DNA of 64,000 nt from Myxococcales bacterium SG8_38 (GTDB lineage Bacteria; Myxococcota_A; Polyangia; Polyangiales; Houyiibacteriaceae), in NCBI GenBank assembly GCA_001303415.1, contig LJTN01000001.1, forward strand, positions 1-64,000, written 5' to 3'. Each line of letters starts with the position of its first letter. Position 1 is the first letter of the stretch. Shown here piece by piece: positions 22,528 through 35,045 of the stretch. Under the pieces are notes generated by a model that was given only the letters and a program-made list of their open reading frames with translations, was not told where the DNA came from and searched no databases. The position numbers and the translations under genes are program-made.

Positions 22528-22952
22528 GGCGGGCGCTGACGCTGCCCGTGCTTTGCTTGGCAGTGTGGATCCCGAGCTGTGCCGACGGCGAGGTTGCGAC
22601 GCGGGGCCGTCTCTTGGATCGCGAGGGCGACGTGCAGCTCGAGCTCGCGATCACGATCGCCGACACGGAGCACACCCGGCAGGAAGGCCTTCGACTCCAC
22701 GGTCCTCTCGGGGACGGTGAAGCGCTGCTGCTTGTGTTTCCGAACGAGGGCACCGTCTGCATCACCAACGCCGGTGTCCCTTTCCCCATCGACGTCGTCT
22801 TCGTGTCGTCGTCGGGCCTCGTCGCCGCCGTCGAGCCCCACATTCCAGCGGACGCCCCGGGCCCCTTCTGCCACCCCCACACCGCCATGGCCCTGGAGCT
22901 TCCCTGGGACACTCTCCGCCCCCTCAACTACTGGAAACTTGAGCTGTTCTAG
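22524..22952 (+). CDS. DUF192 domain protein, exported
   Basis: 142 residues with a signal sequence (RRALTLPVLCLAVWIPSC, possibly lipidated at this Cys). The DUF192 core follows: ELAITIADTEHTRQEGLRLH, LLLVFPNEGTVCITNAGVPF, PIDVVFVSSSGLV, and ALELPWDTLRPLNYWKLEL. The family usually has a Met after the RQEGL stretch (GLMxR); here it is Leu-Arg-Leu. Function of the family is unknown. GTG start overlaps the TGA of the di-heme gene, so both are probably made together in the envelope. Confidence 0.8.
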   Translation: MRRALTLPVLCLAVWIPSCADGEVATRGRLLDREGDVQLELAITIADTEHTRQEGLRLHGPLGDGEALLLVFPNEGTVCITNAGVPFPIDVVFVSSSGLVAAVEPHIPADAPGPFCHPHTAMALELPWDTLRPLNYWKLELF

Positions 22953-22955
22953 CCG

Positions 22956-23029
22956 AAAGATCGCAGCGATTTCCCTTCCAGCGCTCTTTGGGGTTTCCCG
23001 ACCGATTCAGCCAAGGCACTGCGATCTTT
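22956..23029. repeat. 11-bp inverted repeat with 52-nt spacer, downstream of DUF192
   Basis: AAAGATCGCAG (22956-22966) and CTGCGATCTTT (23019-23029) are exact complements. The arms begin three bases after the DUF192 stop and the right arm ends in TTT, so the element could terminate the upstream operon. The long spacer is unusual for an intrinsic terminator. Confidence 0.5.
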
Positions 23030-23041
23030 GTCTGAGAAGCT

Positions 23042-23079
23042 GGGTCATTACCGGGGGTTCGGAGGGTAGAGAGTGACCC
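23042..23079 (+). other. stem-loop just upstream of the ilv promoter
   Basis: GGGTCA (23042-23047) pairs with TGACCC (23074-23079), and inside it TACC (23049-23052) pairs with GGTA (23065-23068). It ends one base before the putative -35 box. It could be the end of the upstream transcript or a protein-binding site; there is no U-run. Confidence 0.4.
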
Positions 23080-23080
23080 C

Positions 23081-23109
23081 TTGACCGTGGGGGGGGTTGG
23101 CAGCACAAT
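23081..23109 (+). promoter_or_regulatory. sigma70-type promoter of the ilv-leu operon
   Basis: TTGACC (23081-23086), a 17-base spacer, and CACAAT (23104-23109) match the -35/-10 consensus in 5 of 6 and 4 of 6 positions. A transcript would start near 23115-23117, a few bases before the leader-peptide ATG at 23119, so the leader peptide may be translated from a nearly leaderless message. Confidence 0.5.
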
Positions 23110-23118
23110 GAGCGCGTA

Positions 23119-23238
23119 ATGTTCCCGCATGCGGCGGCTACGACAACCGACTTGGATGCTCGACGGACGAGCGTCTTGGGCGGTCTTGTAGTCGTTGTAA
23201 GCCTCATTATTAGCCTCCTGCTAGTTACTCAGGCATAG
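23119..23238 (+). CDS. ilv-operon leader (attenuator) peptide, 39 residues
   Basis: ATG 23119 to TAG 23236-23238 encodes 39 residues. The second half reads VLGGLVVVVSLIISLLLVTQ then A: of the last 21 residues, 6 are Val, 6 Leu and 2 Ile. Those are the end products of the operon that starts 271 bases downstream with ilvB. The start lacks a clear Shine-Dalgarno. In enterobacterial ilv and leu leaders, ribosome stalling at such codons when charged tRNA is scarce lets transcription continue. The position in front of a perfect terminator makes the same role here very likely. It is too short for ordinary gene calling. Confidence 0.8.
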   Translation: MFPHAAATTTDLDARRTSVLGGLVVVVSLIISLLLVTQA

Positions 23239-23281
23239 GCGGGGACCAGGACCACCCACAGATCGACCGACTCAACTTCTG

Positions 23282-23312
23282 GCCCCCGCATCGAGCATGC
23301 GGGGGCTTTTTT
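23282..23312 (+). terminator. ilv attenuator terminator, with competing antiterminator
   Basis: GCCCCCGCAT (23282-23291) and ATGCGGGGGC (23297-23306) form a perfect 10-bp stem with a 5-nt loop, followed by six Ts (23307-23312). GCGGGG at 23239-23244, immediately after the leader stop codon, can pair with CCCCGC of the left arm (23284-23289) and would then prevent the terminator. CCTG (23213-23216) in the leader codons can pair with CAGG (23230-23233), next to that antiterminator segment. This is the three-way arrangement of classical amino-acid attenuators. Confidence 0.82.
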
Positions 23313-23357
23313 CTTGCCGTAAGCCCATGAAAGAACAGATATATCGCAAAAATCCAA

Positions 23358-23429
23358 GCGCCTCCGCTCGTGGGGGCGCATGGCAGCTCGTCCCAGTTGA
23401 GCGCGCCTGGCCGCGGCTCGGCCCGGCGC
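23358..23429 (+). other. two further stem-loops in the ilvB 5' leader
   Basis: GCGCCTCC (23358-23365) pairs with GGGGGCGC (23372-23379), one G-U included. GCGCC-T-GGCCG (23403-23413) pairs with CGGCC-C-GGCGC (23419-23429) with a single mismatch. They lie between the attenuator and the ilvB start in about 196 bases with no other gene. Neither has a U-run, so they may affect mRNA stability or translation rather than termination. Confidence 0.45.
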
Positions 23430-23508
23430 CTTCTTCGTCGAGCGCCTGCTGCTTGAATGCTGCGCCAAATCCACTAGGCGGAGCCAGCCACCATCGAAGG
23501 AGACACCC

Positions 23509-25280
23509 GTGACACCCTCGAATCCCAAGCTCAAGAATCGCATCGGCGAGTCGCTCTCCGGTGCTCAGATCATCTGGGAATCGCTCGTACGCGAAGGGGT
23601 CGAAGTCTGCTTCGGCTACCCGGGCGGCGCGATCATGCCCGCATACGATGCGATGATTCAGTATCCAATCCACCACGTGTTGACGCGCCACGAGCAAGGC
23701 GCCTCGCACATGGCCGACGGGTACGCACGCGCGTCGGGACAAGTCGGTGTTTGCATCGCGACTTCGGGGCCGGGTGCGACCAATCTGGTGACCGGCATCG
23801 CGACGGCCATGCTGGACTCGATTCCGATGGTGTGCATCACGGGACAGGTCCCCTCCCCGCTGATCGGAAGCGACGCGTTTCAGGAGACCGACATCACCGG
23901 CTGCACCATCCCGGTGACCAAGCACAACTACCTGGTGACGAAGGCGGAGCAAATCGCGCCCACCATTCGCGAGGCCTTCTACATCGCGCGCTCCGGTCGT
24001 CCCGGCCCGGTCGTGGTCGACATCACCAAGGATGCACAACAGCAAAGCTGCACTTTCGAATGGAACGACGACGAAATCGTCTTGCCCGGCTATCGACCGG
24101 ACTACACGCCGCTCCCCGACCAGCTCGCGGAGGCAGTGGACCTCATCAGGAATGCGAAGCGCCCCATCCTCTTTTCCGGTCAGGGCGTGATCAAGTCGCA
24201 GGCCACCGAGACGCTTCTACAGTTCATCGAGAAGACGAACATTCCGGTCGCTTGCACTTTGCTCGGTCTCGGAGGGTTTCCGGCGACCCATCCGCGCAAT
24301 CTCGGCATGATGGGAATGCACGGAGAAACTTGGGTGAACAAGGCCATCCAGGATGCGGATCTGATCATCGCCGTGGGCATGCGCTTCGACGATCGCGTGA
24401 CGGGTAACCTGAAGACCTACGCTCCCGGCGCGAAGAAGATCCACATCGAGCTCGACCCGGCAGAGATCAACAAGAACGTCCGCGTCGACGTTCCGATCGT
24501 CGGCGATGCCCGTGCGGTATTGCAGGAGCTCCTGCCACACGTGGAGCGGTGCGATCGCCCCGACTGGCTGGCCTACATCGACGACCTCAAAGGAAACTCC
24601 GCAGTACGGGACATCAAGAACCTGCCGGACTTGGGCAAGCTGTATGCCGCGCACGTGATTCACGATCTGTACCGCTTCACGGAGGGCAAGGCGCTCGTCG
24701 TCACGGATGTCGGCCAACACCAGATGTGGGAAGCGCAGTATTACAAGCACGACTATCCACGAAAGCTCATTACGTCCGGCGGCCTCGGCACCATGGGCTT
24801 CGCACTCCCCGCAGGCATCGGCGCCAAGTTTGCGCAACCCAATGATTCGGTATGGGTCATCTGCGGCGACGGCGGATTCCAAATGACGCAAGCGGAGCTC
24901 TCCACCTGCGCACAGGAAGGCATCAAGGTCAACGTTGCCATCATCAACAACGGATTCTTGGGTATGGTGCGCCAGTGGCAGGAGTTCTTCTTCGGCGGCC
25001 GTTACGTCGCGACGCCTCTACGCAGCCCGGATTTCGTGAAAATCGCCGACGCGCACGGATTGACCGGTCTCCGCGTCGAGAAGCGTTCCCAGGTCGAGGA
25101 GGCGGTTCGCACGGCGGAATCGACCGAGGGAACGGTCGTGATCGACTTCCGAGTGGAGCAAGAAGACTCGGTGTATCCGATGGTTCCTGCAGGCGCCAAC
25201 CTTCACGACATGATCGAAAGGCCGTATAAGCCGGGCGAGCAAGCCCACAACCCGATCTTCGAAACCGGGGAGGACGAGTG

Positions 25281-25281
<1 letters not shown>
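23509..25281 (+). CDS. ilvB: acetolactate synthase large (catalytic) subunit
   Basis: First common step of Val, Leu and Ile synthesis: condensation of two pyruvates, or pyruvate with 2-oxobutyrate, using thiamine diphosphate. The 590-residue length is normal. Motifs: VCFGYPGGAIMPAYDAMI with the catalytic Glu in LTRHEQGASHMADGYARASG, the FAD-region GMMGMHGETWVNKAIQDADL, and the ThDP/Mg segment WVICGDGGFQMTQAELSTCA. The GTG start has the ribosome site GAAGGAG upstream. It is preceded by the attenuator and overlaps ilvN by one base (TGATG). Confidence 0.96.
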
Positions 25282-26863
<1,582 letters not shown>

Positions 26864-26899: not shown

Positions 26900-28537
26900 A
26901 TGCAACCCGATCACGTACGGATCTTCGACACGACTCTCCGCGATGGAGAGCAATCACCCGGCGCGACGATGACCTCGTCCGAGAAGCTAGAGGTGGCGAA
27001 GACCCTATCGCGGCTGGGTGTCGACATCATCGAGGCGGGTTTCGCTGCCGCCTCACCCGATGATTTGCGCGCGGTCAAGACCATCGCCGAGGCGGTGGGA
27101 GTGACCGGCGTCGAGGGGCGTCCGGTACCAGAACCTCCGACGATCTGCAGCCTGGCGCGTGCCACGACCTCCGACATCGACCAGGCAGCCGAGGCCATCG
27201 CACCGGCCAAGCACGGAAGAATTCACACGTTCCTCGCGACCTCCCCGATCCATCGCGAGCACAAGCTCCGCATGAGCAAGGGGCAAGTGCTCGCGAAGAT
27301 CACCGAGATGGTCTCTTACGCTCGCAGCATTCGCGAAGACGTGGAGTTCAGCCCCGAGGATGCAGGTCGCACCGAGATGGAGTTCCTCTACGAGGCGCTG
27401 CAAGCGGCAATCGAAGCAGGGGCGACCACGCTCAACATCCCGGATACGGTCGGTTACACCATCCCCGGCGAATTCGGCGAGCGCATTGCCATGATCCGAG
27501 AGAACGTTCCTGGGATCGAAAAGGTGGTGATCAGCGTGCACTGCCACAACGATTTGGGTCTTGCAGTCGCCAACAGCCTTGCTGCGGTTCAAAACGGCGC
27601 GCGTCAAGTGGAAGTCGCCGTCAACGGCATCGGAGAGCGCGCCGGCAATGCGTCGCTCGAAGAGGTCGTGATGGCCCTCTACGTCCGTCGCGACCTCTAC
27701 GGTATCGGCACGCAGATAGACACCACACAGCTCACGCGGGCCAGCCGCCTGGTGAGCAAGGTCACGGGCATGGTCGTCCAGCCAAACAAGGCCATCGTAG
27801 GCGCGAACGCGTTCGCCCACGAAGCCGGCATTCACCAGGACGGCATGCTCAAGCACGAAGAAACCTACGAGATCATGCGTCCTGAAACCGTCGGCGCGGG
27901 AAAGACGCAGCTCGTTCTGGGGAAGCATTCCGGGAGGCACGCGTTCGCGAATCGCTTGATGGAGCTCGGTTATCCCGTATCCGGAGACGGGCTCGACAAG
28001 GCTTTCGCCCGTTTCAAGAAGCTTGCGGACAAGAAGAAGTTCATCACCGATGCAGACTTGGTTGCCCTCATCAGTGACGAGCTGTACCAGCCGACCGAGT
28101 ACTGGAAGCTCGACAAGATCCAGGTTGGATGCGGTACCGGCATGCCGACAGCAACTGTTCGTCTAGTCGGACCGGACGGACAGGCGCGCATTGCAGCGGA
28201 GGTCGGGACCGGGCCGGTCGATGCGGTCTACAAGGCGATTCAGTCGCTGGTGAACGTTCCTTGCACCTTGCTCGAGTACAACGTGCAGTCCGTCACGGAA
28301 GGCATCGACGCGCTCGGCGAAGTGAGCGTTCGCGTCGTGCCAGGCGATTACGACTTGCCACCGGACAGGATCAATCCGCAGTACGAACAATCACGGGCGC
28401 GCGTGTTTCACGGCCACGGAGCACACACCGACATCATCGTCGCGAGCGCCAAGGCTTACATTGCCGCGATCAATCGCATCCTCGCGCTCAAAGAGGGAAC
28501 CCGAGACGAGAACAAGGCAGCGGGGAGCGCTGCATGA
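26900..28537 (+). CDS. leuA: 2-isopropylmalate synthase
   Basis: Condenses 2-oxoisovalerate with acetyl-CoA, the first step of leucine synthesis. The 545 residues include the catalytic barrel with [40 protein letters not shown], the zinc region [39 protein letters not shown], and a C-terminal LeuA allosteric domain (about residues 400-520) that normally binds leucine. This is the long bacterial LeuA1 form. It overlaps leuC by 4 bases (ATGA). Confidence 0.95.
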
Positions 28538-29955
28538 CGAGCACCATGAAACTAAAGACACTATTTCAGAAGGTTTGGGACGAGCACGTGGTCGTTCAGG
28601 AGGCGGGACGCCCCGCCGTCCTATACATCGACTTGCATCTCATTCACGAGGTGACCTCACCCCAGGCCTTCACTGGACTTCGTGAGCGGGGCCTCAAAGT
28701 GCGTCGCCCCGACAAGACGGTCGCGACCATGGATCATTCGACCCCTACCCTGCCGAAGTCCTTGTGGGTCATCGACGATCAGGCAAAGGCGCAACTCGCG
28801 CAGCTGGAACGAAACAGCAAGGAGTTTGGCATCGAGCTCTTTGCACTCGGCGATCGACGAAACGGTATCGTGCACGTCATTGGTCCCGAGCGCGGGCTCA
28901 CGCAACCGGGGAAGACCATCGTTTGCGGCGACAGCCACACGTCCACGCACGGCGCGTTCGGCGCACTGGCGTTCGGCATTGGGACCAGCGAGGTCGAGCA
29001 CGTGCTTGCCACACAGTGTCTGTTGCAACGCGAGCCCAAGACCTTCGAAGTGCGCGTCGACGGGCAATTGATGCCCGGAGTCACCGCGAAGGACATCATC
29101 TTGGCGCTTTGCGCGAAGATCGGAACCGGCGGAGCGACGGGCCACGTGATTGAATACACCGGCTCCGTGATTCGCAGCCTGGACATGGACGGGCGCATGA
29201 CGGTCTGCAACATGAGCATCGAGGCGGGCGCGCGGGCAGGCATGATCGCACCCGACGACACGACGTTCGCGTATCTCGAGGGCCGTGATCGCGTACCCAA
29301 AGGTGCCGAATGGGATGCGGCAGTGGATCGTTGGCGGCAGCTTCGCACCGATGATGGGGCGACCTTCGACAAGACCGTGATCATCGACGCGAACAAGCTC
29401 GAGCCGATGATCACCTACGGGACGAATCCCGGCATGGGCATGCCCATCAGCCAGACGATGCCGACCTCGGAGTCGTTCGACGATCCTTCACAACGCGCAG
29501 CGTTCGAAAAGGCCATGAAATACATGTCACTCCAGCCGGGAGAGCGGTTACTAGGTAAGAAGATCGACGTCGTATTCATCGGTTCGTGCACCAATTCGCG
29601 CATCAGTGACCTGCGCCTGGCAGCCGGTGTGCTCAGCGGCCGCAAGGTCGCCGAAGGCGTGCGTACGCTCGTGGTACCGGGCTCTCACGACGTGAAGAGG
29701 CAAGCGGAGGCGGAGGGCCTCGACCAGATATTCAAAGACGCCGGGGCGGAATGGCGCGAGCCGGGATGCTCGATGTGCATCGCCATGAATGGCGACAACC
29801 TCGAGCCTGGTCAGTACGCAGTCAGCACCTCGAACCGGAACTTCGAGGGGCGTCAAGGCAAGGGCGGACGCACGTTCTTGGCCTCTCCCCTCACCGCTGC
29901 GGCGGCTGCCGTGGCAGGCGAAGTCACCGATCCGAGAAGCTTGCTGCTCGCATGA
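28534..29955 (+). CDS. leuC: 3-isopropylmalate dehydratase large subunit
   Basis: Aconitase-family Fe-S subunit, 473 residues. Evidence: [16 protein letters not shown] at the start, [20 protein letters not shown], the cluster cysteines in [15 protein letters not shown] and [13 protein letters not shown], and [20 protein letters not shown] at the C-terminal side. It works with LeuD. In this operon it probably also isomerises citramalate made by CimA. ATG 28534 overlaps the leuA stop; a second Met four codons in is possible. Confidence 0.95.
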
Positions 29956-29966
29956 AAGGCTCCGGC

Positions 29967-30554
29967 ATGGCGAAATTCACCACACTGACGTCGCATGCGG
30001 TCCCGCTCCCCGTCGACAACGTGGACACGGACCAGATCATCCCCGCACGGTTTCTCAAGGTGACGGACAAGAACGGCCTGGGAGACAATCTCTTTTGCGA
30101 TTGGCGCTACCTCAAAGACGGGTCGCCGAACCCGGATTTCGTGCTCAACGAGCCTGAGTCTCGAGGTGCCCAGATTCTGATCGCGGGAGACAACTTCGGA
30201 AGCGGGTCTTCGCGGGAGCACGCTCCTTGGGCGCTGGTAGGCTGGGGTTTTCGGGCGATCATCTCGACCGGGTTCGCTGACATCTTCAAGAGCAACGCCC
30301 TCAAGAACGGCCTCTTGCCCGTGGAGGTCAGCCCGGAAACGCACAAGCGGCTGATGGAGGCAGTCCAGCCTGATCGCACGACCGAGATCACGATCGACCT
30401 GCCCAGCCAAACCGTGAAGGCCCCTGGGGGGATCGAGTCGAGCTTCCCCATCGACGACTTCTCCAAGCACTGCCTGTTGGAGGGCCTCGACCAGCTCGGA
30501 TATCTCCTCTCTTTCGAGGATCAGATCAGTCGGTATGAGCAGCAGCGAACTTAA
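29967..30554 (+). CDS. leuD: 3-isopropylmalate dehydratase small subunit
   Basis: 195 residues: SHAVPLPVDNVDTDQIIPAR, the swivelling-domain motif IAGDNFGSGSSREHAPWAL, and KNGLLPVEVSPETHKRL. Forms the active dehydratase with LeuC. ATG 29967 has an AAAGG site nine bases ahead; an in-frame ATG at 29952, overlapping the leuC stop, would add five residues. The last 20 bases overlap the start of cimA in another frame. Confidence 0.94.
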   Translation: MAKFTTLTSHAVPLPVDNVDTDQIIPARFLKVTDKNGLGDNLFCDWRYLKDGSPNPDFVLNEPESRGAQILIAGDNFGSGSSREHAPWALVGWGFRAIISTGFADIFKSNALKNGLLPVEVSPETHKRLMEAVQPDRTTEITIDLPSQTVKAPGGIESSFPIDDFSKHCLLEGLDQLGYLLSFEDQISRYEQQRT

Positions 30555-32163
30555 GGGCTCGGGACGCGTCGTGGAGGTCTACGACACCACACTGCGTGAT
30601 GGCACGCAGATGGAGGGCATGAGTCTATCCTGCGACGACAAGCTGCGGATCGCGGAGCACCTCGACTCGTTGGGGGTTGCGTTCGTCGAAGGCGGATGGC
30701 CGGGCTCGAATCCGAAGGACGTAGAGTTCTTCGAGCGAGCCAAAGACGCCGGGTGGAAGCGCATCACCCTGGCGGCGTTCGGATCGACTTGCCGTGCGCA
30801 ACTTCGCGCCGAAGACGACAAGCAGCTTCGCACGCTTCTCGACGCACAGACCCCGGTCTGCACGATCTTCGGAAAGTCGTGGGACATGCACGTTACGCAG
30901 ATCTTGCGCACTACCCTCGAAGAAAATCTGCGGATGGTCGGGGAGAGCGTGGCGTTTCTTCGCGGGAACGATCGACGCGTCATCTACGACGCCGAGCACT
31001 TTTTCGACGGGTACAAATCGGATCCCGAGTACGCCCTCGAGACGCTGCGGGCAGCAGCTCGGAACGGCGCAGAGACCCTGGTGCTCTGTGACACGAACGG
31101 TGGCTCGATGCCTTGGGAGGTCGAACGCATCGTCCAGGCCGTCCGAGCTGCTCTACCGGATGCTCGCCTCGGCATTCACGCCCACAACGACGGCGAGTGC
31201 GGCGTTGCGAACTCGGTCGCCGCAGTGCGTGCGGGAGCGCATCACGTGCAGGGGACGATCAACGGATATGGAGAGCGATGCGGCAACGCAAACCTCTGCT
31301 CCATCATCCCGGACGTCGAGCTGAAGCTCGGCCTGCAGTGCTTGCCGGAGGGCGGGCTCAGGAAGCTCTATGATCTCTCGCATTTCGTGGCGGAGATCGC
31401 CAACTTGAATCCGAATGATCACGCAGCGTACGTCGGCCGAAGCGCCTTTGCTCACAAGGGCGGCGTTCACGTATCGGCCATCCGAAGGCATCCGGAATCC
31501 TACGAGCACGTCGATCCGGCCTTGGTCGGAAATGCTTCGCGGGTCGTGGTCAGCGAGCTCTCGGGACGAAGCAACGTGCTGAGCAAGGCGGAGGAGCTCG
31601 GCCTCGAGGTCAACTCGGACCATGGCGGACGCGTGCTCGAGAAGATCAAGGAGCTCGAGGCAAAGGGTTTTGCATACGAAGCAGCGGAGGCCTCGGTTGC
31701 GCTTTTAATGGCTCGGCAGCAGGCGGGCTACAAGTCGCCTTTCGAAGTCCTCGATTTTCAGGCGAGCGTGGGGCGTCGGCGTGGCGGCGGGATGTTCGCC
31801 GAAGCGACGGTCAAGGTTCAAATCGGCGAAGAAGTGGTGCATACCGCCGGCGAGGGCAATGGGCCCGTGAGCGCTCTCGACTCGGCGCTCCGCAAGGCGC
31901 TGCTTCCATCTTTCCCCGAGGTCGCGAACATCCATCTCAGCGACTACAAGGTTCGCATTCTCGATGGACACAGTGGAACGGGCGCGACCACCAGGGTGCT
32001 CATCGACAGCCAGTCGGCACACGACACCTGGAGCACCGTAGGTGCATCGAGCAACATCATCGAAGCATCGCTTCAAGCACTCATCGACAGCATCGAGTAC
32101 GGGCTGACTCTGCAACGCGCCAAAGACGAAAAGCGCATCCAGGAGCCGAACGCCCGGACTTAG
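30535..32163 (+). CDS. cimA: citramalate synthase
   Basis: Condenses pyruvate and acetyl-CoA to (R)-citramalate, giving 2-oxobutyrate for isoleucine after LeuCD and LeuB. 542 residues with VEVYDTTLRDGTQMEGMSLS, VIYDAEHFFDGYKSDPEYAL, IHAHNDGECGVANSVAAVRA, and ERCGNANLCSIIPDVELK: the CimA/LeuA-like group distinguished from true LeuA by GTQMEG in place of GEQSPG. A C-terminal regulatory domain is present (DYKVRILDGHSGTGATTRVL). Its place between leuD and leuB supports the citramalate route. Confidence 0.93.
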   Translation: MSSSELKGSGRVVEVYDTTLRDGTQMEGMSLSCDDKLRIAEHLDSLGVAFVEGGWPGSNPKDVEFFERAKDAGWKRITLAAFGSTCRAQLRAEDDKQLRTLLDAQTPVCTIFGKSWDMHVTQILRTTLEENLRMVGESVAFLRGNDRRVIYDAEHFFDGYKSDPEYALETLRAAARNGAETLVLCDTNGGSMPWEVERIVQAVRAALPDARLGIHAHNDGECGVANSVAAVRAGAHHVQGTINGYGERCGNANLCSIIPDVELKLGLQCLPEGGLRKLYDLSHFVAEIANLNPNDHAAYVGRSAFAHKGGVHVSAIRRHPESYEHVDPALVGNASRVVVSELSGRSNVLSKAEELGLEVNSDHGGRVLEKIKELEAKGFAYEAAEASVALLMARQQAGYKSPFEVLDFQASVGRRRGGGMFAEATVKVQIGEEVVHTAGEGNGPVSALDSALRKALLPSFPEVANIHLSDYKVRILDGHSGTGATTRVLIDSQSAHDTWSTVGASSNIIEASLQALIDSIEYGLTLQRAKDEKRIQEPNART

Positions 32164-32220: not shown

Positions 32221-33297
32221 ATGAAAGCAAAGATCACACTCCTTCCCGGTGACGGAATTGGACCCGAGATAGTGGATGCGACTCGACAGGTTCTCGAAGC
32301 CGTCGAGCGAAAGTCGGGGCACAGCTTCACGTTCTCCACTCATCTGATCGGCGGCATCGCAATCGACGAGACGGGCGTGCCGCTGCCCGATGACACCATC
32401 GTGGCGTGTCGAAGCTCGGACGCGGTGCTCCTAGGTGCCGTGGGAGGGCCAAAGTGGGATGACCCAACTGCGGAAGTTCGCCCCGAACAGGGCTTGTTGG
32501 GCATGCGTAAGGCGTTGAAACTGTTCGCGAACCTCCGACCCGTGAAGCTCTTCCGTGGTCTCGAGAGTGCATCGCCGCTGCGGCCCGAGCGGTTGCGCGG
32601 CGTCGACTTGGTGTTCGTTCGCGAGCTCACCGGCGGGATCTACTTCGGCCAACCCAAGGGGAAGGAAGTTCGAAACGGCTTGCGCACCGGATTCGACACG
32701 ATGGTATACGACGAGAACGAAATTCGTCGCATCGTCCAGCTCGCATGCGACGTGGCGAGAAAGCGGCGCAAGCGTGTCACGTCCATCGACAAGGCCAACG
32801 TGCTTGCAACCATGCAGGTCTGGCGAGAGGTTGCCACCGAGGTCGCGAAGAAGAATCCAGACATCAAGCTGGATCATCAGCTCGTGGACTCGGCCGCGAT
32901 GCGACTAGTGACCGAGCCGGCGTCTTTCGATGTGATCGTCAGCGGCAACATGTTCGGAGACATCCTGTCGGACGAGGGCGCAGTACTGACGGGCTCCCTG
33001 GGGCTCCTTCCGAGTGCCTCTCTCGGTGAAGGCAAGCTCGGGGTCTACGAGCCGATTCATGGGTCTGCACCCGACATCGCCGGCAAGGGGGTGGCGAACC
33101 CACTTGGCACGATTCTCAGCGCGGCCATGCTGCTCCGGCATAGCCTCGATCTCGATGAAGACGCCAAGGCCATCGAAGCGGCCGTCCAGAAGGTTCTAGA
33201 CAACGGCCTTCGCACCGCCGATCTCAGCGGCGGCCAGCGCTCACTCGGGACGACGGAAATGGCGTATGCAGTCATCGCGGCGATCGAAGGCGCTTGA
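32221..33297 (+). CDS. leuB: 3-isopropylmalate dehydrogenase
   Basis: NAD-dependent oxidative decarboxylation in leucine synthesis, and probably of 3-methylmalate from the citramalate route. 358 residues: ITLLPGDGIGPEIVDATRQV, DAVLLGAVGGPKWDD, LFANLRPVKLF, FVRELTGGIYFGQPKGK, and the metal/NAD region GNMFGDILSDEGAVLTGSLG with PIHGSAPDIAGKGVANPLG. The 57-base gap after cimA holds no clear terminator, so leuB is probably in the same transcript. Confidence 0.96.
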   Translation: MKAKITLLPGDGIGPEIVDATRQVLEAVERKSGHSFTFSTHLIGGIAIDETGVPLPDDTIVACRSSDAVLLGAVGGPKWDDPTAEVRPEQGLLGMRKALKLFANLRPVKLFRGLESASPLRPERLRGVDLVFVRELTGGIYFGQPKGKEVRNGLRTGFDTMVYDENEIRRIVQLACDVARKRRKRVTSIDKANVLATMQVWREVATEVAKKNPDIKLDHQLVDSAAMRLVTEPASFDVIVSGNMFGDILSDEGAVLTGSLGLLPSASLGEGKLGVYEPIHGSAPDIAGKGVANPLGTILSAAMLLRHSLDLDEDAKAIEAAVQKVLDNGLRTADLSGGQRSLGTTEMAYAVIAAIEGA

Positions 33298-33311
33298 GGA
33301 AAGGAATCTCG

Positions 33312-35045
33312 ATGCCCCGGAAACGCGTCAGTAGGCTGTTCGACCTCAAGGAAGACGAACGTGGACGGAAGTACATGGAGGTCTACCTGGACGGAATCGC
33401 GCTGCTTCGATTGGTGCTGACCAACAAAGGAACGGCCTTCAGTTACGAGGAACGTGTGGCCCTCAGGCTGGACGGTCTTCTTCCACCCCAGTTCAATACG
33501 CTCGAGCAACAGATCGCGCGCGTCTATGAGGGCTTCGTGCAAGCCCCGTCCGACATCGACAAGTACCAATATCTTCGAGCAGTGCAGGAGCGCCAGGAGA
33601 TACTCTTCTATGCGCTGCTCGAAAAGCACCTCGAAGAGATGCTCCCCATCGTCTACACGCCGACCGTGGGAGCGGCGGTGCAGCAGTTCAGTGCGCTCTA
33701 TCAGAATCCCCGTGGGCTTTCGATCTCACCTCTGAACATCGACAGGACTGCGCTGGCGCTCGAATGCTTTCCGATGGAAGACGTGCGGATGATCGTCGCC
33801 ACCGACTCTTCCGCCATTCTCGGCATCGGGGATCAGGGATACGGCGGGCTTGCGATTCCAATCGGAAAGATGGCGCTTTACACGGTGGCGGGTGGAGTCA
33901 GCCCGTTTCACACCATGCCCGTAGCGCTCGATGTCGGCACGGACCGCATGGATCTGATCAACGACAACAACTACCTGGGCGTGCGTCAGAAGCGCTTGCG
34001 CGGTGAAGACTACTACAAGTTCTTGGACCGCTTCGTCGATGCGGTGTGGTCTCGCTGGCCCGATGCGGTAATTCAGTGGGAAGACCTCTCGAAGAGCGCG
34101 GCATTTACGGTCCTGGAGCGGTACCGTGACCGCGGCCCTTCTTTCAACGACGACATCCAGGGCACCGGTGCGGTCGCCCTCGCCGGGATCCTCGCCGCAT
34201 GCCACCTCCGCAACGAAAGCTTGCGAGACGAAGTCTTCGTGATCCACGGCGCAGGTGCGGGCGGCGTGGGTGTGGCGTGGGCCGTGCGAGAGGGGCTCAT
34301 TCGGGCGGGGCTGAGCGCCGAGGAAGCCAAGGCGCGCGTATTCGTGCTGGACTCCAAGGGGCTATTGGTCACCGATCGCGACATCGAAGGGTACAAGCGC
34401 GAGTTCGCGCATGGTCAGGAGACCATCCAGGGCTGGGAGCTCGCGGGCGACCTGCCGGACTTGGTCGAGACGATTCGAAACGCCAAGGCTACGGTGTTGC
34501 TGGGTCTTTCCGGGCGTCCGGGCGCCTTTGATGAAGAAGTGGTCCGTGCGATGGCGGACAATCACGAGTGGCCGATCATTTTTCCGCTATCGAATCCCAC
34601 CAGCTCTGCAGAGGCCAAGCCGGTCGACATTTTCCGCTGGACCGACGGGCGGGCGATCGTCGCAACCGGGAGTCCGTTCGAGCCCGTCATGATGGGCGGC
34701 GTAACGCATCCGATTGGGCAAGGTAACAACGCCTTCATCTTCCCGGGGCTCGGGTTTGGCGCGATCTTGAGTGATGCGAGGACGATCACCGATGGCATGG
34801 TGCTCGAGGCGTCCCAAGCTCTCGCAGACTACACCATCGAGAAATACGTCGAGGGCGGCTTGATCTATCCGCCGGTCAGTGATCTGCAGGAGACGTCCGT
34901 TCGTGTGGCCACCCGGGTCGTGCAGCAAGCGATCAAGGACGGCGTTGCTCGCCGGCAAAACATCCCCGACGACATCGAGGCATTCGTCCGCGATCGGTTC
35001 TGGCATCCCACCTACCTGCCCTTCGTCCGCGGCCACCTAGACTAG
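33312..35045 (+). CDS. maeA: NAD-dependent malic enzyme (oxaloacetate-decarboxylating)
   Basis: Converts malate to pyruvate and CO2. 577 residues of the large (SfcA/eukaryotic-like) type: LLNKGTAFSYEER-like start read here as LTNKGTAFSYEERVALRLDG, MLPIVYTPTVGAAVQQFS, the metal site VIQWEDLSKSAAF with FNDDIQGTGAVALAGI, Rossmann FVIHGAGAGGVGVAWAV, and PLSNPTSSAEAKP. ATG 33312 follows an AAAGGA site; it starts 14 bases after leuB. Co-expression would supply pyruvate, the substrate of both IlvB and CimA. Confidence 0.93.
   Translation: MPRKRVSRLFDLKEDERGRKYMEVYLDGIALLRLVLTNKGTAFSYEERVALRLDGLLPPQFNTLEQQIARVYEGFVQAPSDIDKYQYLRAVQERQEILFYALLEKHLEEMLPIVYTPTVGAAVQQFSALYQNPRGLSISPLNIDRTALALECFPMEDVRMIVATDSSAILGIGDQGYGGLAIPIGKMALYTVAGGVSPFHTMPVALDVGTDRMDLINDNNYLGVRQKRLRGEDYYKFLDRFVDAVWSRWPDAVIQWEDLSKSAAFTVLERYRDRGPSFNDDIQGTGAVALAGILAACHLRNESLRDEVFVIHGAGAGGVGVAWAVREGLIRAGLSAEEAKARVFVLDSKGLLVTDRDIEGYKREFAHGQETIQGWELAGDLPDLVETIRNAKATVLLGLSGRPGAFDEEVVRAMADNHEWPIIFPLSNPTSSAEAKPVDIFRWTDGRAIVATGSPFEPVMMGGVTHPIGQGNNAFIFPGLGFGAILSDARTITDGMVLEASQALADYTIEKYVEGGLIYPPVSDLQETSVRVATRVVQQAIKDGVARRQNIPDDIEAFVRDRFWHPTYLPFVRGHLD

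Follow-up and report, generated by a model that had tools for sequence, protein, structure and literature searches.

A predicted ribosome-mediated attenuator with a probably leaderless leader mRNA before the ilvBNC-leuACD-cimA-leuB operon of a member of the Myxococcota

For enterobacteria, it is textbook knowledge that ilv/leu operons are under ribosome-mediated control, and attenuators of branched-chain operons have also been predicted, by comparative surveys, for alpha- and gamma-proteobacteria and a few other groups. The window analysed here, that is, the whole stretch of 64,000 nucleotides from Myxococcales bacterium SG8_38 (genome of 3.6 Mb in 105 contigs), carries a V/L/I-rich reading frame and a terminator before a long run of genes for the synthesis of valine, leucine and isoleucine, and raises the question of whether such control extends to the Myxococcota. 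The conserved sequence features make it very probable that a ribosome-mediated (leader-peptide) transcription attenuator controls ilvBNC-leuACD-cimA-leuB. The gene order ilvB-ilvN-ilvC-leuA-leuCD-cimA-leuB, as given in the original prediction, was borne out by NCBIfam models with the following assignments:

23509..25281, + strand: ilvB, acetolactate synthase large subunit (TIGR00118, 764.6 bits vs cutoff 538; GTG start, GGAG 6 nt upstream)
25278..25823, + strand: ilvN, acetolactate synthase small subunit (NCBIfam)
25850..26863, + strand: ilvC, ketol-acid reductoisomerase (NCBIfam)
26900..28537, + strand: leuA, 2-isopropylmalate synthase (NCBIfam)
28549..29955, + strand: leuC, 3-isopropylmalate dehydratase large subunit (NCBIfam; start estimated from the HMM match)
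29967..30554, + strand: leuD, 3-isopropylmalate dehydratase small subunit (NCBIfam; start estimated from the HMM match)
30535..32163, + strand: cimA, citramalate synthase (TIGR00977, 737 bits)
32221..33297, + strand: leuB, 3-isopropylmalate dehydrogenase (TIGR00169, 502 bits)

A malic enzyme gene (33294-35045) lies on the same strand immediately 3' of leuB and may be part of the same operon.

Leader reading frame, control codons and alternative helices

The leader region is composed of the following elements, in which the segments are numbered in the order of their appearance:

23081..23109, + strand: predicted promoter, -35 box TTGACC (23081-23086), 17-nt spacer, -10 box CACAAT (23104-23109)
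23119..23238, + strand: leader peptide ORF of 39 codons, MFPHAAATTTDLDARRTSVLGGLVVVVSLIISLLLVTQA*, ATG at 23119 and TAG at 23236-23238 (conserved in 14/14 genomes, in-frame dN/dS)
23120..23128, + strand: segment 1, overlapping the start codon; possible anti-antiterminator arm with segment 2
23239..23249, + strand: segment 2, antiterminator 5' arm, GCGGGGACCAG, its first base directly after the stop codon
23279..23291, + strand: segment 3, antiterminator 3' arm and terminator 5' arm, with the pairing part CTGGCCCCCGC at 23279-23289
23297..23307, + strand: segment 4, intrinsic terminator 3' arm
23307..23312, + strand: T6 tract of the terminator (TTTTTT)

The 39-codon frame with 14 Val/Leu/Ile among its final 21 residues was found as originally described. 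Its control codons run GTA GTC GTT GTA - CTC ATT ATT - CTC CTG CTA GTT, and synonyms that are rare in the operon recur in this run (GTA 7%, CTA 5% and ATT 16% of the usage for their amino acid). A V/L/I-rich ORF combined with a strong terminator occurs once in the 64-kb window, searched on both strands, and never in 25 Markov copies of it (1.6 Mb). Within the Myxococcota, the genome of the window is placed close to Sandaracinus and the Polyangiaceae. Of the 18 relatives that the collection contains for its genus, 16 have an ilvB match, and conservation was followed in 14 same-genus genomes, including the window, whose upstream region is intact, the contig of a fifteenth ending before this region. 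Both the ATG and the TAG of the leader are identical in all 14, indels within the leader measure 3 or 12 nt with none out of frame, and the amino acids of the core VVVV-x-LIISLLLV are invariant throughout, with silent codon variation at GTC/GTT, GTA/GTC/GTG, CTC/CTT and CTA/CTC. For the 3' half of the leader, dN/dS amounts to 0.38 in frame, while the two alternative frames give 0.94 and 4.5, a pattern that argues for purifying selection on the ORF in its predicted frame of translation.

Downstream of this frame, GCCCCCGCAT-CGAGC-ATGCGGGGGC forms a perfect 10-bp GC-rich terminator stem (23282-23306) followed by six Ts, as had been reported, with one further G.U pair (23281/23307) at its base. 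The stem is kept in 14/14 genomes with stabilities of -18.6 to -23.3 kcal/mol. Concerning the antiterminator, the original prediction had placed GCGGGG (23239-23244) and CCCCGC (23284-23289) correctly, but its length had been underestimated by about half, as the complementarity of GCGGGGACCAG and CTGGCCCCCGC extends over 23239-23249/23279-23289 with 10/11 pairs and one mismatch. Within the genus, the 2:3 helix exhibits one double change (GCAGGG/CCCTGC in locus L009) and the 3:4 helix none, only G.U changes that leave every pair unbroken; covariation is modest there because the segments scarcely vary. Among wider relatives, compensatory changes in 2:3 are found as GCGAGG/CCCTCGC in L023 and L025, with a matching change in L053, and in L025 segments 3 and 4 are altered together, which constitutes a compensatory change in 3:4. 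The predicted antiterminator would exclude the terminator by sharing one arm with it, and this arrangement is kept with compensatory changes.

Folding predictions for the 14 genomes are consistent with this arrangement. With the ribosome edge on Val/Leu/Ile codons the mean 2:3 pairing of segment 3 reaches 0.79-0.89, whereas it falls to 0.0 in 14/14 genomes once the ribosome is set on the stop codon. In these models the geometry fits an attenuator, with a ribosome at the stop codon blocking segment 2 and one at the control codons leaving it free. The 3:4 helix exceeds 2:3 in stability by 2.4-4.3 kcal/mol, so that antitermination must be kinetic. The 1:2 helix (23120-23125/23243-23248) is paired in 98.8% of cells, which is weak evidence because few changes occur in it, and in the window its register is shifted by one to give 8 pairs. 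A default-off state of untranslated RNA through 1:2 pairing is plausible and is the weakest step of the mechanism: in a ribosome-free thermodynamic fold of the RNA cut before segment 4 the 2:3 helix is still preferred, and the default state without translation is therefore uncertain.

The proposed mechanism, in which transcription start, leader translation, stalling, termination and regulation are all predicted steps, would operate as follows. Transcription would begin at about 23116-23119, so that the 5' end of the leader mRNA lies at or a few bases before the AUG, and the leader would be translated without a Shine-Dalgarno site. When charged tRNA-Ile, tRNA-Leu or tRNA-Val is scarce, the ribosome would stall in GUA GUC GUU GUA AGC CUC AUU AUU AGC CUC CUG CUA GUU, so that segment 2 (23239-23249) could pair with segment 3 (23279-23289), allowing RNA polymerase to continue into ilvB. 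With ample charged tRNAs, the ribosome would reach the UAG at 23236-23238 and hide segment 2, whereupon 3:4 pairing would stop transcription in the U6 tract.

The interval before ilvB and the 5' end of the leader mRNA

Between the terminator and ilvB, a 61-codon frame (23327-23512) begins 14 nt past the terminator T tract, and its TGA stop overlaps the ilvB start codon GTG. Inside this frame, about 75-108 nt 5' of ilvB, lies a second terminator-like hairpin (23401-23437, AGGCGCCCGGTCG..CGACCCGGCGCCT). It is conceivable, though unlikely, that in this genus two switches stand in tandem, the leader-peptide attenuator being followed by a translation-gated terminator hairpin in the 61-codon ORF. 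Such an arrangement would account for a 182-nt stretch without any indel and with the same ATG in 15 same-genus genomes, 14 of which also share the stop, as well as for the strong hairpin, accompanied by a T tract in most relatives; against it stand a coding signal that is weak (dN/dS of 0.79 and no signature of codon position), hairpin covariation that does not clearly exceed shuffles, the broken T tract of the window (TTCTTCG), and the conservation of hairpin and frame in the window's genus only, with no counterpart of the frame in the other genera searched. A protein-coding reading of 23327-23512 was rejected on account of the unconvincing coding signal and the lack of a counterpart in other genera.

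Returning to the leader-peptide attenuator itself, the promoter-like pair pointed out at the outset, TTGACC-17-CACAAT, is present at 23081-23109, is of the sigma-70 type with 9/12 positions in agreement with the promoter consensus, and is conserved in the same-genus alignment as TTGAC(C/G) and CA(G/C)AAT. A search for a promoter 3' of the terminator yielded none that is convincing, the sole match being weak and located within ilvB. The ATG at 23119 comes nine bases 3' of the end of the -10 box, and the leader start codon is 38 bp from the promoter. Moreover, TTGAC is found 35-43 nt 5' of an in-frame leader start codon in 35/35 diverged loci, as compared to 0.37 loci expected by chance (a background of 0.2% among the remaining start codons of this DNA), with the formal probability of this coincidence overstated because the loci are related. 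Given normal promoter geometry, the 5' RNA end is predicted 0-8 nt before the leader start codon, which leaves no space for a Shine-Dalgarno site. From this short promoter-to-start distance, the leader mRNA is probably leaderless or near-leaderless, a point absent from the original prediction.

Attenuation might also be real with a leader start further 3', provided with a Shine-Dalgarno site, in which case the mRNA would not be leaderless. In-frame TTG codons at 23152 and 23176 could serve as such starts, but the ATG kept in all 14 genomes directly 3' of the promoter and the uniform spacing of start codons after TTGAC in every one of the 35 loci speak for the upstream start, and no purine-rich site is seen by eye 5' of the alternative ones, so that a start of this kind is improbable. 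The same low probability is assigned to a combined picture, in which a leaderless attenuator of class-wide age would be followed by a genus-specific 61-codon ORF whose translation melts the second hairpin, giving two successive translation checks before ilvB.

Two further observations concern the promoter region. Outside the window's genus, most Polyangia loci have a longer -35 box, TTGACGC-nnn-GCG (35-45 nt 5' of the leader start), with G, C, G, C and G at +5, +6, +10, +11 and +12 in 22-26 of the 35 loci (for example L027, L030, L049, L057, L127, L130 and L135), which is possibly an operator or promoter feature. Upstream of the promoter, at about 22905-23080 of the window, a MITE-like repeat with the terminal inverted repeat GGGACACTCTCC/GGAGAGTGTCCC and the inner repeat GATCGCAGCGA/TCGCTGCGATC reaches up to the ilv promoter's -35 box with its right end, its left end lying within the 3' end of a DUF192 gene. 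By model and pattern search the window's own genome contains 17 arms of this repeat, at least five pairs of which are divergent, with a spacing that is mostly about 54 nt, and the right arm is present at this site in about half of the same-genus genomes.

Spread across the class and beyond

V/L/I-rich leaders 5' of ilvB are also found in Sorangium, Sandaracinus, other Polyangiaceae MAGs and one Myxococcaceae MAG. These leaders have no common peptide sequence beyond their V/L/I richness (IVVVVVTLALGLISS, LLLLLVLLIG, GIVLVVIGLALGLL), and each precedes a hairpin of the GGCCCCCGCACC-GGTGCGGGGGCC type and is accompanied by a complementary segment 2, which in these relatives overlaps the final leader codons instead of following the stop codon. 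That leaders alike only in V/L/I richness always end near segment 2, that rare synonyms are kept at the control codons, and that in an Rfam scan (T-box, Leu_leader and others) the best matches scored 14-17 bits vs gathering cutoffs of 41-59, none of which was reached, makes it very unlikely that the V/L/I-rich ORF is incidental (for instance a small one-helix membrane protein) and that the terminator acts constitutively or responds to a protein or a small-molecule RNA sensor, even though VVVVSLIISLLLV is compatible with a transmembrane helix and, according to a work cited in a passage of PMC1262725, changing candidate control codons before ilvB in S. coelicolor had no effect.

For a wider search of the attenuator, a covariance model was built from 29 loci of the element, with no information on ilv genes in it. 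This model gave one match in the entire own genome and matches in 35/143 class genomes; with strict filters the other 108/143 remained without a match, and the element is likely absent from part of the class. In all but one of the 30 match loci examined ilvB or ilvD adjoins the element, with ilvD (dihydroxy-acid dehydratase) being the neighbour where the operon apparently starts with ilvD, and the sole exception is L140, which showed no related gene nearby. Loci L124 and L143 are short and at contig ends, and in them ilvB is present with the terminator misplaced by automated positioning. Since the model is blind to ilv genes, this linkage in genomes outside the training set provides independent support, and in independent genomes the predicted element accompanies genes for the synthesis of the same amino acids. 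As judged from these matches, an ilv attenuator of this type is spread across the class.

Short V/L/I-rich frames 5' of ilvB were also observed in L077, L088 and L091 (Acidobacteria) and in L094 (Anaerolineales), whose hairpins differ in sequence (AGGGCCATCATCCG..., AGGAGCCGCCCC...), which suggests further ilvB attenuators in other phyla.

The comparison of ilvB upstream regions in relatives, which the original prediction had put forward as a check, revealed a conserved frame and, for the 2:3 as well as the 3:4 helix, compensatory changes, and together with the helices kept and model matches almost only before ilvB or ilvD, it supports the reading as an attenuator. Promoter, ORF, control codons, helices and linked genes are conserved alike. 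By this means, about 35 candidate leader peptides are gained that gene callers would probably miss, from an element that goes with ilvB or ilvD in genomes across the class.

Comparison with known attenuators

In the enterobacterial ivbL-ilvBN, ilvL-ilvGMEDA and leuL-leuABCD leaders, a ribosome-binding site lies in a 5' untranslated region. The element described here resembles them in its control codons, its predicted 1:2, 2:3 and 3:4 pairing and its U-tract terminator, but offers space for at most a few nucleotides 5' of the start codon. For Myxococcota and myxobacteria, no descriptions of ilv attenuators or leaderless transcripts were found in the literature searched, with most subscription journals outside its scope, and a complete branched-chain amino-acid attenuator is here placed, as a prediction, in the Myxococcota. 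The original view that finding the mechanism complete outside the enterobacteria would extend it needs correction, because ilvB attenuators have been described or shown in Actinobacteria (PMC1262725, PMC11857589, PMC13236596), and novelty is therefore smaller than had been implied. They were predicted there by comparison in 2005 (PMC1262725), with recent experimental support from Corynebacterium glutamicum and Mycobacterium tuberculosis (PMC11857589, PMC13236596). Like these actinobacterial ilvB leaders, the one described here combines a V/L/I-rich ORF with a terminator before ilvB (PMC1262725), whereas it belongs to another phylum and has different helices; in S. coelicolor the codon swap was negative, as far as that is related in the cited passage of PMC1262725.

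The closest points of comparison are two operons. In C. glutamicum ilvBNC, which has the leader IlvL MTIIRLVVVTARRLP, transcription starts a single nucleotide away from the start codon of the leader (PMC11857589), while for the present element a start near this codon is predicted from spacing. Both systems have a V/L/I leader peptide and, as predicted here, terminator, antiterminator and anti-antiterminator hairpins before ilvB (PMC11857589). However, the C. glutamicum leader has 15 codons as compared to 39 here, where the run of control codons is longer, and the present operon adds leuACD-cimA-leuB, resides in a member of the Myxococcota, and has an attenuator that is a prediction from sequence. 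For the M. tuberculosis ilvB1NC attenuator, support comes from end-sequencing and reporters (PMC13236596). There, as proposed here, the antiterminator is hidden by a ribosome that has arrived at the stop codon and becomes available when the ribosome stalls on Val/Leu/Ile codons, and an intrinsic terminator precedes ilvB, whereas peptide and helices are different and the mechanism is a prediction in the present case (PMC13236596). Finally, leader peptides are read from leaderless transcripts in Streptomyces lividans (PMC8079986), as would be the case here with a probable leaderless transcript, and the uniform promoter-to-start spacing of 35-43 nt suggests that leaderless attenuator peptides are not an actinobacterial speciality.
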